NCBI GenBank assembly: GCA_022736495.1
Contig: DZCR01000001.1
Span: 1-64,000 of the forward strand
Direction: 5' to 3'
Length of the DNA stretch: 64,000 nucleotides
Source: Desulfobacca acetoxidans
GTDB taxonomy: Bacteria > Desulfobacterota > Desulfobaccia > Desulfobaccales > 0-14-0-80-60-11
The notes under the pieces: model-generated
What the model saw: the letters and a program-made list of their open reading frames with translations, nothing else
The model's database searches: none
What the model was told of the DNA's origin: nothing
Translations under genes and position numbers: made by a program
In this document: in pieces, positions 4,842-50,944 of the stretch
Position numbering within the stretch: position 1 is the stretch's first letter
Layout: every line of letters begins with the position of its first letter

Positions 4842-4913
4842 GGGGTAGGGATTATTAAAGTTGTTGGCGCAAAGACCGATCCTCATACAAAGCAAGCGGA
4901 TAAGGGGCCATGG

Positions 4914-5321
4914 GTGGACCGGATCTTTGTCTATATCGTGCTGGTGCTGGGGGGACTGCTGGTGGCCGGCGCCTCGGGAGATTTAGTGTCCGCAGGGCGC
5001 TATGATCTGTTATGTGGCCCTGCTGAATTAGCCCAATCGGTCTCGGCTTTGGGTGATATGGTTGATGACCACCTGGCCTTACAATCAGCTTTAGCCCGGG
5101 AATATGGCTCGCCCCATATTGCTCAGGTGATTCAATTATTAGCGGAGCGTTATGATGCCGCACATCCGGTGGCGTTACCGACACCTGATTTAACTATAAA
5201 TATGCCGATCAACAACCATAATCCTCTCGATGGCGTTCTGGCGGGGGGTCGAGCTCTGGGAGGTTTTTATACACAATTATTCAATGCAATGCCTGGAGCT
5301 GTGCCCGCAGGCCTGCATTGA
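4914..5321 (+). CDS. Small membrane-anchored protein of unknown function
   Basis: Not recognised. Taking the GTG at 4914 (AAGGGG 8 bases upstream) gives 135 aa with an N-terminal hydrophobic anchor (IFVYIVLVLGGLLVAGA, about residues 4-20), followed by a soluble part without cysteines. The frame is open upstream to an ATG at 4818, but that would lie inside the divergent paaK promoter. From about 5080 the third codon positions are much richer in A/T than in the neighbours, so the gene may be acquired or poorly expressed. It is convergent with the DUF1641 gene. Whether it is truly coding is uncertain. Confidence 0.45.
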   Translation: MDRIFVYIVLVLGGLLVAGASGDLVSAGRYDLLCGPAELAQSVSALGDMVDDHLALQSALAREYGSPHIAQVIQLLAERYDAAHPVALPTPDLTINMPINNHNPLDGVLAGGRALGGFYTQLFNAMPGAVPAGLH

Positions 5322-5373
5322 GTTAATGCCCTTTCCCGGCCGGTGATTCAGTCCGTGTCTGACCCCGAACCCT

Positions 5374-6087
5374 CTAAACCCCCGACTCAGCCACCTCCGG
5401 CGGCGGCCCCGCCTTGAGTTTGCCCAGGGCCTTGGTGAGTTCCACCAGGACGCCCAGGCCCTCTTGGCATTCTCGGCTCCGCAGCCGCCAGAGCATCCCC
5501 AAAGCGCCCACCGGCTTGACCTCCTCCAGGTTGACTTCCAGGGGAACATCGGTGAGCTTGTCAAGAAAGCGGATCATCTCAGGATTCGACAATTTTTTGA
5601 CCATGCCGTGCATCAAGACGAAGCCGTCGCCCATGGCCGCAATATCCCCGGCATCATAATGCGTGGCAATCTTACCATACATTTCCAGTACCGCGGCGTT
5701 GATGCGGAATATGCCTTTGTGCTCCAGGGCATCCAGGAAGTCGATCAATTTGGGGACGCCCAACTTCAGGAGGGGCTCCATATCCCGCCACCAGTCGATG
5801 AGATTTTCCAACTGCTCCAGGGACCAGCTCAGATATTTCAGACTGGGCAGGAGCCGCTTGATGAGGGTAAAGAAGTCTTCCAACTGAAAGCCGCTCTCGA
5901 CCTCCACCAGTTCCTCGGTCAGCCTCCGGACGGCTGGTTCGGTTAAGAAGGAGAGGTCGCGGCCCAAATCGCTGAGGTTTTCCCAGGGCGCGGCAAACTT
6001 CTGCAATTGCTGCTCGACCCGGGCGACTCCATCCAACCTGGCTTCAATGCGGGCCAGTTTCTCCAGGATCAGCTCGTCGTTGGTCAT
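5374..6087 (-). CDS. DUF1641 family protein
   Basis: A 237-aa soluble helical protein of the DUF1641 family. It begins with a short coiled-coil-like segment (LEKLARIEARLDGVARVEQQLQ), and the family core follows in the second half (YDAGDIAAMGDGFVLMHGMVKKLSNPEM). These proteins are encoded beside sulfide:quinone-oxidoreductase-like flavoproteins and some formate dehydrogenases; the function is unknown. Its start codon overlaps the stop of the SQR-like gene by four bases (ATGA), indicating coupled expression and a probable shared complex. Confidence 0.8.
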   Translation of the reverse strand: MTNDELILEKLARIEARLDGVARVEQQLQKFAAPWENLSDLGRDLSFLTEPAVRRLTEELVEVESGFQLEDFFTLIKRLLPSLKYLSWSLEQLENLIDWWRDMEPLLKLGVPKLIDFLDALEHKGIFRINAAVLEMYGKIATHYDAGDIAAMGDGFVLMHGMVKKLSNPEMIRFLDKLTDVPLEVNLEEVKPVGALGMLWRLRSRECQEGLGVLVELTKALGKLKAGPPPEVAESGV

Positions 6088-46622: not shown

Positions 46623-47045
46623 TTACAGGGCGCTCCGGTCGAGGCTAACCTCCATGGCCCGAGCCGGACAGACCGGACAACACAGCTCGCAGGCGCTGCA
46701 TTTGGTGGCGTCAAACAGCACCTCCATCTCCGGCCGCTTGATGAAGAGGGCCCCGGTGGGACAGACCGCCGTACAAGCGCCGCACTGGTAACAGCGCTCT
46801 TCATTACGCCGCACATCCCGGGCGACCCGCTGGACCTTAACCCCCGCTTCCCGCAGGTATTTGAGGCCCCGGCGAAAATTCTTCGGGTGCCCCCTCAACT
46901 CCATGACCATCACCCCTTCTTTGCGGGGATAGATGGTGGCCTTGAGCAGATTAAACTCCAGGTCGTAATCCTTGACCAGGCGATAAATGATGGGTTGATC
47001 CACCACCTCCTGGGAAAATCGCAGCACTAACATTTCCGCGTGCAT
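46623..47045 (-). CDS. NIL-domain ferredoxin
   Basis: A 140-aa protein: an N-terminal NIL domain (LRFSQEVVDQPIIYRLVKDY), often a methionine/small-ligand sensor, then two [4Fe-4S] motifs (CYQCGACTAVCP and CSACELCCPVCP). NIL-ferredoxins are common in anaerobes; those studied are linked to homocysteine synthesis or to electron transfer. No partner gene adjacent. Confidence 0.87.
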   Translation of the reverse strand: MHAEMLVLRFSQEVVDQPIIYRLVKDYDLEFNLLKATIYPRKEGVMVMELRGHPKNFRRGLKYLREAGVKVQRVARDVRRNEERCYQCGACTAVCPTGALFIKRPEMEVLFDATKCSACELCCPVCPARAMEVSLDRSAL

Positions 47046-47192
47046 ATCCTAATCCTCAATAAGCCGTCTTATGTGAAATGCCTTCACGCGTCGCAAGCGG
47101 CTTGGTTCTTCAGATAATCTTTGGGCGTCAGTTTTCCCATCATAAAGTATGCCAAGCCAGCCCCTCTTGTGAATCTCCTTTGGTTTTCCTGG
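47046..47192. other. Spacer downstream of the MerB-like gene
   Basis: 147 bases. On the minus strand a short open stretch (GLAYFMMGKLTPKDYL and a few residues more, ending near 47091) reads like protein and has AAGGAG about 20-30 bases upstream, but it is under 30 codons. I cannot decide whether it is a gene. Confidence 0.3.
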
Positions 47193-47903
47193 CTAAGAAA
47201 GCTCCGGCGCCCAGAAAGGGCGGGTCTGGGCAATTTCTCTTATAGCGCCCACAAATCCGCTTAAATAATCCTGCTTGCGGGAAACATAATCCAAGCATAA
47301 CCGTTTTTGGAAAAAATCCCCTGAAAACAATTTGACCAAGTCTGCAAGTTGGATAATGCCTTCTTCGGTAGCAGGATCAAACCGGATCCAGTTGCGGATG
47401 TGCTCTTCCGACCGGAAGAGATTCATGGTGCTTCACGCATGGGGGAGACGGCCCAGCCATTTCGAGAATGGCACCGCAACGTACCCTAAAGTTTCTTCCG
47501 GTACCGCTTTCAATATCTGCCCATCCCGGATTTCAATGTGAACCGGCAAACCGCAATCAAGGCACGGGGCTGCAATCTGGACAACCTTCCCTGGGAAAAG
47601 CCAGCAAACTGCCAGCGACTCAAAACCTCATTGACCAAACCACTTTTGTTTGCCATCCACAGTGATGCGATATTGGGTGGGGAGATTACTGAAAGGGGCA
47701 AAACTGCTTATGTAGTCAGTGTCGGGAAACAACCAAATTCCTGGAATCCCTGCGGACATCAGGTCGTGAAGAGCCCTGCGGGCTTCCTCAAGCGGAATCT
47801 GCAGCTCCCCCGCTAACTCCGTGTAGTGGGGCGCCTGACCCGACTGCACCATCCTTGTCAAGATCGCATGGTATACTTTATCCAAGAGGCTTGGTGAGCT
47901 CAT
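47193..47903 (-). CDS. MerB-like (alkylmercury lyase family) selenoprotein with two predicted Sec
   Basis: One 236-codon frame that contains just two in-frame stops, both TGA (47630-47628, codon 92; 47435-47433, codon 157). Reading them as selenocysteine gives a continuous MerB-like protein: a winged-helix N-terminus (HYTELAGELQIPLEEARRAL), KWFGQ-U-GFESLAV, PCLDCGLPVHIEIRDGQ, then HA-U-STMNLFRSEEHIRNW. In MerB the catalytic residues are Cys96, Asp99 and Cys159; aligned here they are U92, Glu95 and U157 (spacing 65 versus 63). Each TGA is followed at 18-19 bases by a SECIS-like hairpin. ATG with GGGAGG and AAGGA upstream; promoter at 47936-47963. C-Hg bond cleavage is the family's known reaction; activity here is inferred. 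The alternative is a pseudogene with two nonsense mutations. Confidence 0.8.
47403..47420 (-). promoter_or_regulatory. SECIS-like hairpin after the second UGA
   Basis: Minus strand CTCTTCC-GGTC-GGAAGAG: a perfect 7-bp stem whose loop starts with GG, the loop beginning 19 bases after TGA 47433. In E. coli fdhF the loop is AGGUCU, 17 bases after its UGA. Confidence 0.7.
47600..47616 (-). promoter_or_regulatory. SECIS-like hairpin after the first UGA
   Basis: Minus strand GCTGGCA-GTT-TGCTGGC: a 7-bp stem (five Watson-Crick, two G-U pairs) with a G at the first loop position, the loop starting 18 bases after TGA 47628. With the last A-U pair open the loop is AGTTT. Confidence 0.6.
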
Positions 47904-47935
47904 TGTCCTTACCTCCCCTAGGTAAGATTACGTAA

Positions 47936-47963
47936 ATTATATCAGATAATTGGCCTTCCTCAA
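47936..47963 (-). promoter_or_regulatory. Promoter of the MerB-like gene
   Basis: Minus strand TTGAGG (47963-47958), 16-base spacer, TATAAT (47941-47936). The -35 box overlaps the purL stop codon. No metal-responsive operator of the MerR dyad type is evident. Confidence 0.6.
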
Positions 47964-50944
47964 ATCAGGTCGCCAAAACGGCGCTCCCAGGCGGACTTGA
48001 GGGTTTCCAATGGGGCCGCCAGCATGGGCTGCCCGTGCCGAGAAATCTCTACGGTTTGATCGGAGCGCACCTGGCCGATTAAGGTAAGGGGCTGGCCGCG
48101 CCAGAGTTCTTCCAGGCGGACCTGGTGGGCCGGGTCGATGCTCACCAGGAACCGCCCGGCCGACTCGGAGTAGAGACTGGCGTAGGCCGGAGATTCCGGG
48201 GCCACCCGGCTCAGGTCCGCCTCTACGCCCAACCCCGCGGCCAGGCTTGACAGAACCAGGTGCACCCCCAGGCCGCCCCGATAGAGGCCGTGGGCCGAGG
48301 CCAACAGTTCGGCCCGGATCGCCTCTTCGAGCAAACGGTAATAAGCGAGAAATTCCTCGGGGTGAACCTCAGGCACACTCAGGCCCACATAGCCCAACAT
48401 CTCGTAAAATTCCGAGCCGCCCAGTTCGGGCCGGGTGTCGCCCACCAAATAAATGAGGTCTCCGGGCCGCTTCCATTCCGGGCTCAGGGCCCGACGCAGG
48501 TCCGGCAGCACGCTCACCGCGGTAAAAAACAGGGTGGGCAGACCGCTTACCCGGTGCATCTCCCCATAGGCGCCGGGTATCACACCGTCCACATACATGC
48601 TGTCTTTACCCGACAACAATGGAACCCCGTAAGCCAGGCACAGATCCTTGAGGGCCAGGCAGGAGCGCACCAGTTGGGCCGCCTTGTAGCGCCCGTCGGG
48701 ATTCACGCCTGGATCGTATTCCACGCTGGGCCAGCAGAAATTATCCACCCCGCCGATGTGGTCCAGGGTCCCGCCCACCGCCAGCAAACGCCGCACCGCC
48801 TCGTCGATGGTCACCGCGGTCATGTGATAGGTGTCGATCTGGGAATAAGCGGGGCACACGGCCAGGCTCAGGGCCAGCCCCCGGCGGGAGTCCGGCCGGG
48901 GGCGCAGGATCGCGGCATCGCCGGGCACCGGGGTGAACTCTCCCACCAGGGGTTTGATCACGCTGGCCCCCTGGACCTCGTGGTCGTATTGCCGGGAGAT
49001 CCACTCCCGGGAGCAAATGTTGGGCCGGTCCAGCAGGGCCAGGAGAACGCCCAGGTGGTCTCCGGGGTCGCTCAGGACCGGCTCGGTCAGACGGGTCTCC
49101 GGCGGCAGCCATTCGGCTGCAAACTCCCAGGGAGGGAACTCCTCCTCCAGGAATGACAAATCCATATAAGCGCAGGTGCGGCCCTGGTATTTTACCTCCA
49201 GAACTCCGCGGTCGGTATAGCGGCCCATGACGGTGGCCTCCACCGCATGCTTCCGGGCCAGGCCCTTGAAGGCGGCTTCGTGCTCCGGCTTGACGGCCAC
49301 CACCATGCGTTCCTGAGATTCGGACACCCAGATTTCCCAGGGGTCCAGCCCCTGGTATTTGAGGGGTATCGCCTCCAGCCAGACTTCGCCGCCGCCGGCC
49401 ATTTGAGCCGATTCCCCCACCGCCGAGGACAGCCCGCCGCCGCCGCAGTCGGTGATGAAGGTGATGAGCCCCTGGTCCCGGGCCTCTAACAGGAAGTCAT
49501 GCATGTTCTTCTGGGTGTAGGGGTCGCCGATCTGGACGTGGCCCGCCGGGGTGCCGGGAGAGGAGACCTCGGACGACGCAGTAACCCCGTGGATGCCATC
49601 CTGGCCCACCCGGCCGCCGCAGGTAACGATCAGGTCGCCGGGGTGCGCGGCTTTGTCGGCCCCGGGCTCGCCGTTGATTTCCCGAGGCAGCAACCCCACC
49701 GCGCCCACAAACACCAGGCATTTACCCAAATAGGCGGCATCGAAATAGAGGGCGCCGTTGACGGTGGGCACCCCGCTCTTGTTGCCGCCGTCTTTGACGC
49801 CTTCAATGACGCCGTCCAGGAGCCGCCGGGGGTGCAGTCGGGGTTTGAGCGGCCCGGCATAGTTCCGGGGACCCACGCAAAAGCCGTACAGGCCCCCGAT
49901 GAGGCGAGCCCCTTTGCCAGTCCCCAGAGGGTCCCGGTAAACGCCCACAATGCCGGTAAGTGAGCCGCCGTAGGCCTCCAGGTTGGAAGGGGAATTGTGG
50001 GTCTCGCCCTTGATCACGTAGGAAAACTCGTCGTCCAACTGCCCCACCCCGGCGTTATCCCAGAGCACCGAGACCACCCAGGGTTTGTGTTTGCTGATCT
50101 CCCGGGTGGGTGCGGAGATGCAGGTCTTGAACGGATTTTCCAGGATGAAGCTTTCCCCGCTCCTCAAATCCCGGTAATGGAAGCGCCCCCGGAAGGTGTT
50201 GTGGTTGCAGTGGTCGCTGCGGGCCTGGGCCAGGTATTCCAGTTCCACGTCAGTGGGGGCGGACAGCCCCACCGCAGCCCGCCGGGCCTGGACTTCCGGA
50301 CGCTGAAAGTAATCCAGGATAACCGGTAGGTCGGCATCCCGGAGCGCCAGATGACGCTGGCAGCTCAGGTGCTTGAGGACTTCCGGCGAGGCGATCTCAA
50401 AGGCCTCCACCGCGGGGGTGTGGGCCAGCGCCACCCGAGGCAGAATAATGCCTATGCCTTTATCGGAGTCCCAGGTCTCCCGGGAAAAAATCCGGAATTC
50501 CTGGACCATGTCGTTAGCCAGGAGTTCCCGGGCGATCTGGGCCGCATGGTTCCCGGTGAGCTGGTCGCCGGTTAACAGGAAGAGCTTGGAGGTATACACC
50601 GCGGCCCCGGTGGGTAGGGGCTGCCCCAGATAGGCTTCCAGGGCTTCCCGGGCCACAGCCCCGGCCGTATCCCGCACGCCGGGCTTAAAGCCCACCCAAA
50701 TGGCCCATTGGAAATCCCGGGCCAGGGTTTGAAAGCTGGAGACTTGGGTGGTGGGATGCGTGAAGATCTCCGTGCGGATCGCCTCCAGGCTCGCCAGGGG
50801 AAGATCCACATCCAGCATGAGCACTCGCAAAACCCGGACAGCCGTGAGGTCAAAGCCGAAGTATTCCCGGGCCTGGCGACGCACCCCCTCCCCTTCTGCG
50901 TCGATCAGGTCCGGGCGCCAACCGATTTCCAGCCGCACTGCCAT
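47960..50944 (-). CDS. purL: Phosphoribosylformylglycinamidine synthase, PurS-PurL fusion
   Basis: FGAR to FGAM step of purine synthesis, 994 aa. Two PurS-like segments occupy the N-terminal ~190 residues (RLEIGWRPDLIDAEGEG ... and WAIWVGFKPGVRDTAGAVAREAL), followed by PurL: SDHCNHNTFRG, KGETHNSPSNLEAYGGSLTG, ITDCGGGGLSSAVGESA and LLSGKDSM. The glutaminase PurQ is not in this chain nor next door. The length and fused PurS distinguish it from both the ~740-aa PurL and the ~1300-aa full-length enzyme. Confidence 0.94.
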   Translation of the reverse strand: MAVRLEIGWRPDLIDAEGEGVRRQAREYFGFDLTAVRVLRVLMLDVDLPLASLEAIRTEIFTHPTTQVSSFQTLARDFQWAIWVGFKPGVRDTAGAVAREALEAYLGQPLPTGAAVYTSKLFLLTGDQLTGNHAAQIARELLANDMVQEFRIFSRETWDSDKGIGIILPRVALAHTPAVEAFEIASPEVLKHLSCQRHLALRDADLPVILDYFQRPEVQARRAAVGLSAPTDVELEYLAQARSDHCNHNTFRGRFHYRDLRSGESFILENPFKTCISAPTREISKHKPWVVSVLWDNAGVGQLDDEFSYVIKGETHNSPSNLEAYGGSLTGIVGVYRDPLGTGKGARLIGGLYGFCVGPRNYAGPLKPRLHPRRLLDGVIEGVKDGGNKSGVPTVNGALYFDAAYLGKCLVFVGAVGLLPREINGEPGADKAAHPGDLIVTCGGRVGQDGIHGVTASSEVSSPGTPAGHVQIGDPYTQKNMHDFLLEARDQGLITFITDCGGGGLSSAVGESAQMAGGGEVWLEAIPLKYQGLDPWEIWVSESQERMVVAVKPEHEAAFKGLARKHAVEATVMGRYTDRGVLEVKYQGRTCAYMDLSFLEEEFPPWEFAAEWLPPETRLTEPVLSDPGDHLGVLLALLDRPNICSREWISRQYDHEVQGASVIKPLVGEFTPVPGDAAILRPRPDSRRGLALSLAVCPAYSQIDTYHMTAVTIDEAVRRLLAVGGTLDHIGGVDNFCWPSVEYDPGVNPDGRYKAAQLVRSCLALKDLCLAYGVPLLSGKDSMYVDGVIPGAYGEMHRVSGLPTLFFTAVSVLPDLRRALSPEWKRPGDLIYLVGDTRPELGGSEFYEMLGYVGLSVPEVHPEEFLAYYRLLEEAIRAELLASAHGLYRGGLGVHLVLSSLAAGLGVEADLSRVAPESPAYASLYSESAGRFLVSIDPAHQVRLEELWRGQPLTLIGQVRSDQTVEISRHGQPMLAAPLETLKSAWERRFGDLI

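Follow-up and report, generated by a model that had tools for sequence, protein, structure and literature searches.

The stretch of DNA analysed here (the window) comprises 64,000 nucleotides of Desulfobacca acetoxidans (NCBI GenBank assembly GCA_022736495.1, contig DZCR01000001.1, positions 1 to 64,000). On its minus strand, at 47903..47193, lies a MerB-like gene of 236 codons with a TAG stop. The only interruptions of its reading frame are TGA at codon 92 (47628..47630) and TGA at codon 157 (47433..47435), both predicted to encode selenocysteine (Sec). An earlier note on this DNA had described a 236-codon frame with these two TGA codons and given no strand; we confirmed it on the minus strand, and the plus-strand reading of 47193-47903 contains several stops. 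A Shine-Dalgarno-like GGGGAGG motif is located at 47912..47918 (minus strand), 5' of the ATG at 47903.

The read-through protein matches the Pfam MerB family (PF03243) with 68.3 bits at a cut-off of 27. Its AlphaFold model has a predicted local distance difference test (pLDDT) score of 94.8, and the good structural matches of the model are MerB structures only (PDB: 3f0o, 3f2f, 5c17), with 16-21% identity. In the profile alignment to the MerB chains, codon 92 falls on Cys96, codon 157 on Cys159 and Glu95 (47619..47621, minus strand) on Asp99, the proton-relay acid in MerB, which is the placement that the earlier note had proposed. An acid is found at the Asp99 column in 201 out of 201 aligned rows, namely Glu in 195 and Asp in six. 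The window gene differs from MerB by UGA, the predicted Sec, in place of Cys96 and Cys159 and by Glu in place of Asp99. Furthermore, the residues of the window protein past position ~209 fall outside the MerB match, and no mer genes were seen beside the window gene. With the curated MerB models of NCBI the window protein scores too low, reaching 30.9 bits where the cut-off is 193 and 24.1 bits where it is 200.

Distribution of the paired TGA codons

The widespread MerB-like family with two UGA codons is real. Scanning named genomes gave 192 loci encoding relatives, and all counts on 80 loci refer to the best 80 of these 192. One of the three scan patterns required a Cys or Trp codon at column 92, so the scan was not biased toward TGA. 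After read-through and alignment, 74 of the 80 loci have TGA at both columns and five have TGC at column 92 followed by TGA at column 157 (L059, L066, L071, L074 and L075). The last one, L068, is frameshifted inside the match, so that column 157 is TGA in all loci except this one (79 of 80). TGG at column 92 was found in none of the 80 loci. In 75 of the 80, the 20 nt before the match start include a Shine-Dalgarno-like motif. The earlier note had judged two chance nonsense mutations at exactly these sites very unlikely, in keeping with the recurrence of the paired TGAs at the same columns, and had named other residues or frameshifts in close homologues as evidence against its prediction; the 74 TGA/TGA, five TGC/TGA and single frameshifted loci do not refute it.

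The first in-frame stop past codon 200 is TGA in 20 out of 78 loci, TAA in 31 and TAG in 27. A single gene thus uses UGA in two ways, which is what Sec coding would predict. In locus L078 (match 4893-5576) there is a third in-frame TGA, at codon 104, besides those at columns 92 and 157.

Of 297 genomes sampled evenly from the phylum, 28 had matches, and all 20 matches of at least 270 bits carry exactly two TGAs, while weaker, more distant or fragmentary matches carry zero, one or two. In a sample of one order (149 genomes), two TGAs were found in 20 of 21 near-full-length matches, the exception being G486 with three TGA and one TAG; the fragments in G517 and G532 have one TGA within the covered half. 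A partial second copy with two TGAs is present in G030. Both samples overlap the 80 loci, with at least six carrier genomes shared by the phylum sample and seven by the order sample, so the counts are not independent. The best loci mostly belong to deltaproteobacterial (Desulfobacterota-type) metagenome-assembled genomes (MAGs). Further records are labelled Nitrospinae, Tectomicrobia, Thermoflexaceae, Poribacteria and others; these labels were taken as given and may include binning errors. Three genomes (G129, G186 and G039) carry two or three double-TGA copies each. Broken family copies were seen in L097, L108 and G486, which would fit a single mobile gene that is gained and lost.

Among 120 close database proteins, 51 are full-length with Trp at both columns (e.g. 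among the public metagenome proteins P0002-P0030), which probably reflects translation of TGA with code 4 on short contigs. Another 61 are cut short and have Cys at column 92, and one short protein each has Ser, Gly or Trp there. By alignment 41 of the 64 short proteins end exactly at residue 156, and most others are placed elsewhere by the aligner. Three proteins have Cys at both columns (P0031, P0050 and P0119), and two longer ones are unaligned at column 157 or have another residue. Distant MerB-like proteins of the same phylum, L098 and L099, also have Cys at both columns. UGA in the family thus stands opposite Cys of homologues at site 92 as well as at site 157, as expected of a bacterial selenoprotein.

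We built a maximum-likelihood tree of 100 rows, which includes 19 of the 120 database proteins and from which L068 was dropped; U157 of the short proteins was inferred from their truncation. The Sec92 label needs 11 changes on this tree, eight of which are forced by well-supported branches. As judged from these labels, column 92 has switched repeatedly between predicted Sec and Cys codons. The tree neighbours of the window protein are L002 with TGA and P0044 with Cys at column 92.

SECIS-like hairpins and selenocysteine machinery

Each TGA is followed by a hairpin similar to a selenocysteine insertion sequence (SECIS). Hairpin 1 (47600..47616, minus strand) has a 6-bp stem and starts 14 nt from the first base of TGA 92; its loop is GGUCU in the consensus and AGUUU in the window. 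Hairpin 2 (47403..47420, minus strand) has a 7-bp stem with a GGUC loop and starts 15 nt from the first base of TGA 157. The GGUC loop presumably resembles the SECIS loop of E. coli fdhF. No Rfam family was matched at the hairpins in the window. RNAalifold, with no structure supplied, recovered the same two helices.

In hairpin 2, 98.5% of the cells are paired (68 distinct sequences), compared to 44-63% with slid partners, and compensatory changes are found in four of the seven pairs. None of 500 shuffles reached any of five measures, without correction for relatedness. In hairpin 1, 99.5% of the cells are paired (71 distinct sequences), and 12-60% when the partners are slid by one to three columns. 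At aligned positions where at least 50 sequences share the residue, synonymous codons are identical in excess after both TGAs, on average by 0.31 in codons 93-103 (nine positions) and by 0.38 in codons 158-168 (10 positions); in the nine other codon blocks the mean excess is between -0.002 and 0.08. Of the loci with TGC at column 92, L059 and L066 still have the GGUC loop of hairpin 1, and L071, L074 and L075 no longer do. We predict two separate SECIS-like elements, one after each TGA, for which the compensatory changes speak clearly at codon 157 and modestly at codon 92.

The carriers searched for selenocysteine machinery were 49 genomes, from 50 of the 80 loci. selB was above the cut-off in 41 of the 49 carriers and tRNA-Sec in 42, with a match of at least 55 bits in 40; one or both were found in 48. 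The nearest relatives of the window genome found by PurL, G055 (85%) and G237 (83%), both have selB (by E-value) and tRNA-Sec. In this tRNA-Sec search nine of the 10 genomes were over the cut-off, G342 barely. Two selB genes over the cut-off were found in each of G004, G034, G038 and G048, and one of the paired genes lies directly beside a tRNA-Sec match of 52-56 bits (e.g. G048:C100). The paired selB genes suggest a duplicated or specialised Sec decoding set.

Proposed function and alternative explanations

From these observations we infer a MerB-domain protein in which both UGAs are read as Sec and which would use its selenolate pair to cleave the bond between carbon and mercury or another metal(loid); we give this reading a probability of roughly 0.68. 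Its first part, double selenocysteine in the family, is predicted with high confidence. The double-Sec MerB homologue proposed in the earlier note finds strong support in the paired TGAs, the Cys/TGA exchange, the two hairpins, the Sec machinery of the carriers and of the nearest relatives of the window genome, and the MerB fold; the mercury or other organometal chemistry that the note suggested is putative. Given double selenocysteine, lyase action on organometals is the likely function of the protein, since metal-ligand positions together with a conserved acid argue for MerB-like protonolysis with selenolates. In the proposed mechanism, each of the two in-frame SECIS-like hairpins would recruit SelB and tRNA-Sec on its own, and Sec92 and Sec157 would be inserted during translation. 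The two Sec residues would then take the part that Cys96 and Cys159 have in MerB and bind the metal of the organometal substrate, while Glu95, the counterpart of Asp99, would relay the proton that releases the hydrocarbon.

Several results weigh against this reading. Concerning Sec insertion, hairpin 1 shows two-sided change in just one of six pairs, so that its covariation is weaker than that of hairpin 2, and for two of its five measures 113 and 99 of the 500 shuffles do as well. No selB was over the cut-off in eight of the 49 carriers and no tRNA-Sec in seven, and G023 lacks both; the carriers are fragmented MAGs, although this is unproven as the cause. The tRNA-Sec cut-off is lax, as it was passed by five of 14 control genomes compared to two of 14 for selB. 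Moreover, selB was above the cut-off in 263 of the 297 genomes of the phylum sample (and, by E-value, in 15 of its 16 carriers, with G033 as the exception), so that its presence, nearly universal there, gives no specific support. Concerning function, the NCBI MerB cut-offs were failed by seven of seven family members tested, and MerA was over the cut-off in just five of the 49 carriers. In the Pfam scan of neighbours, which covered 76 of 83 adjacent co-directional open reading frames (ORFs), no mer family was among the 25 shown of 136 families; the commonest family in the adjacent ORFs is CCG with six. Finally, two selenolates might bind Hg(II) too tightly for the product to be released readily.

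The alternative that survives best, although we consider it rather improbable, is that the double-Sec protein is a binder, carrier or sink of a metal or metalloid (Hg(II), Cu(I) or a similar soft metal) and does not cleave a bond. The rarity of MerA, which would take Hg(II) away, fits such a sink. So does the neighbourhood: when ORFs of at least 70 residues located up to 6 kb from the 80 loci and the window gene were clustered, no neighbour was common to more than 13 loci. A copper-binding MerB mutant and a link between the active-site Asp and metal specificity, as cited in PMC8261052, also point in this direction. However, the acid is kept in every aligned row, for which a mere binder has no obvious need.

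Less probable still is a double-Sec redox enzyme, i.e. a peroxidase, reductase or dehalogenase on the MerB scaffold with a Sec92-Sec157 diselenide. According to PMC9312934, most of the selenoproteins known from prokaryotes are believed to have redox roles. A CCG/HdrD-type Fe-S-like ORF cluster is found within 6 kb in 13 loci and a C_GCAxxG_C_C-like ORF cluster in nine, where the cluster names derive from sequence and from Pfam matches of some members. But only a minority of the loci have such neighbours, the Sec residues occupy the places of the MerB metal ligands and the acidic residue is kept.

A pseudogene with two nonsense mutations, or a real product that is a fragment of 91 or 156 residues, is very improbable. 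Broken copies do exist (the frameshifted L068, L097, L108 and G486), but the protein is conserved 3' of the same two TGAs in records of several phyla and the codons after the TGAs are strongly constrained, so we rejected this explanation for the family. A genome-wide reassignment of UGA to tryptophan or another residue, to which the database proteins with Trp at both columns would be suited, is a negligible alternative and was likewise rejected, given TGC and no TGG at column 92 of the 80 loci, TGA as the frame's own stop in a quarter of the loci, a hairpin after each TGA and the PurL gene of the window, which has 16 TGG codons, zero internal TGA and a TGA stop.

For the favoured lyase, mercury is unproven as the physiological substrate, and a different organometal or a metalloid is just as possible. 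The corrinoid protein of mercury methylation, HgcA, was over the cut-off in 27 of the 49 carriers. In the phylum sample it was found in 10 of 16 carriers and in 73 of 281 other genomes (Fisher p 0.003), and in the one order in 16 of 23 carriers and 56 of 126 others (p 0.04), both uncorrected for kinship and genome completeness. The association weakens as kinship narrows and is a lead only. Tentatively, and with more doubt than belief, we suggest a widespread, laterally moving family with the Sec pair as two metal ligands in a diselenolate MerB active site, which may serve anaerobes including mercury methylators as a MerA-independent demethylase of organometals (methylmercury). At G504:C56:20526-21065 there is an HgcA-like fragment with one in-frame TGA; a Sec-containing HgcA is listed in PMC13188914.

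A close known counterpart is SaoL (NF040728), a MerB-like organometallic lyase with the motif CU and one Sec according to a table of PMC13188914. SaoL and the window protein are both MerB-like selenoproteins, the latter by prediction, and the Sec of SaoL falls on the U157 column. However, SaoL has a single Sec and Cys at the Cys96 column, whereas the window family has two predicted Sec; the window protein has A-U at positions 156-157, that is Ala and not Cys before U157, in addition to U92. The SaoL model, with a cut-off of 140 bits, gives 41.6 bits for the window protein and 33.6-42.5 for six further family members. L105, with TGA at the 157 column, is over this cut-off (148.5 bits). Another locus, L107:1408-1965, combines Cys in the Cys96 column with TGA in the Cys159 column; it is nearer to classical MerB (93 of 193 bits) and not SaoL by cut-off.

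Other selenoproteins with two Sec, listed in PMC13188914, include NF041115, a 'putative mercuric reductase' with the motif UxxU, and MduS. Like the predicted product of the window gene, they have two Sec in one bacterial protein, and they belong to other families. As listed there, the Sec residues of NF041115 are three positions apart, while the predicted ones of the window protein are 65 residues apart and expected to meet in a MerB-type active site. MerB-like/SaoL entries are found in the tables of PMC13188914 (with one Sec) and PMC9312934. We found no double-Sec MerB in the papers that we searched, although it may have been mentioned earlier elsewhere, and MerB is absent from the main text of deep-Sep (PMC12013277) and of the older surveys PMC2398784 and PMC5029168. 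Sec at the second site is thus already known from SaoL; it is the predicted Sec at both sites which would set the family apart.

Selenium binds mercury more tightly than sulfur, and the known MerB uses sulfur. A family in which two ligands are predicted Sec, and one has switched many times between Cys and Sec, amounts to a natural experiment on selenium in metal chemistry. It is easily missed by routine annotation, as many database members stop at residue 155-156, before the second UGA, or show Trp, and surveys requiring Cys96/Asp99/Cys159 would overlook it. Should the family indeed degrade methylmercury, the turnover of organomercury in anoxic sediments would have to be estimated anew.

Genomic context

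The upstream neighbour of the MerB-like gene is a PurL-like (FGAM synthase-type) gene at 47960..50944 on the minus strand, with Pfam AIRS, AIRS_C and PurS domains and a TGA stop. Downstream lies the gene of a NIL-domain 4Fe-4S ferredoxin (46623..47045, minus strand; Pfam NIL and Fer4). In four relatives whose PurL is 76-85% identical, the purL, NIL-ferredoxin and MFS genes are adjacent, and no match to the MerB-like gene was found between purL and the NIL-ferredoxin gene. The stretch of ~875 bases between these two genes (47060..47933) is without counterpart in close relatives; in L111 the borders follow from breaks of the blastn alignment. The GC content over the stretch is ~49-52%, compared to ~54-67% in the surrounding windows; that of the gene is 51.5% and that of PurL 65%. 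This is probably a single-gene insertion, in which the gene arrived alone; loss in all four relatives is the alternative. We infer a lateral arrival for the window copy on these grounds. With both hairpins contained in its coding sequence, the gene should depend on nothing more than a host that uses Sec.

Since the host block exists without the MerB-like gene, the NIL-ferredoxin is probably no functional partner. A conserved operon partner was not found either in the neighbour clustering described above. Operon logic was therefore rejected as a guide to function, with at most 13 loci per partner and window neighbours that are the host block.

No repeats were found at the exact insertion borders. 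Inside the stretch there are an imperfect direct repeat of 13 nt (92%; 47094-47106 with 47883-47895) and an imperfect inverted repeat of 16 nt (88%; 47142-47157 with 47866-47881). Both repeats lie near the ends of the stretch and may be due to chance or a trace of movement.
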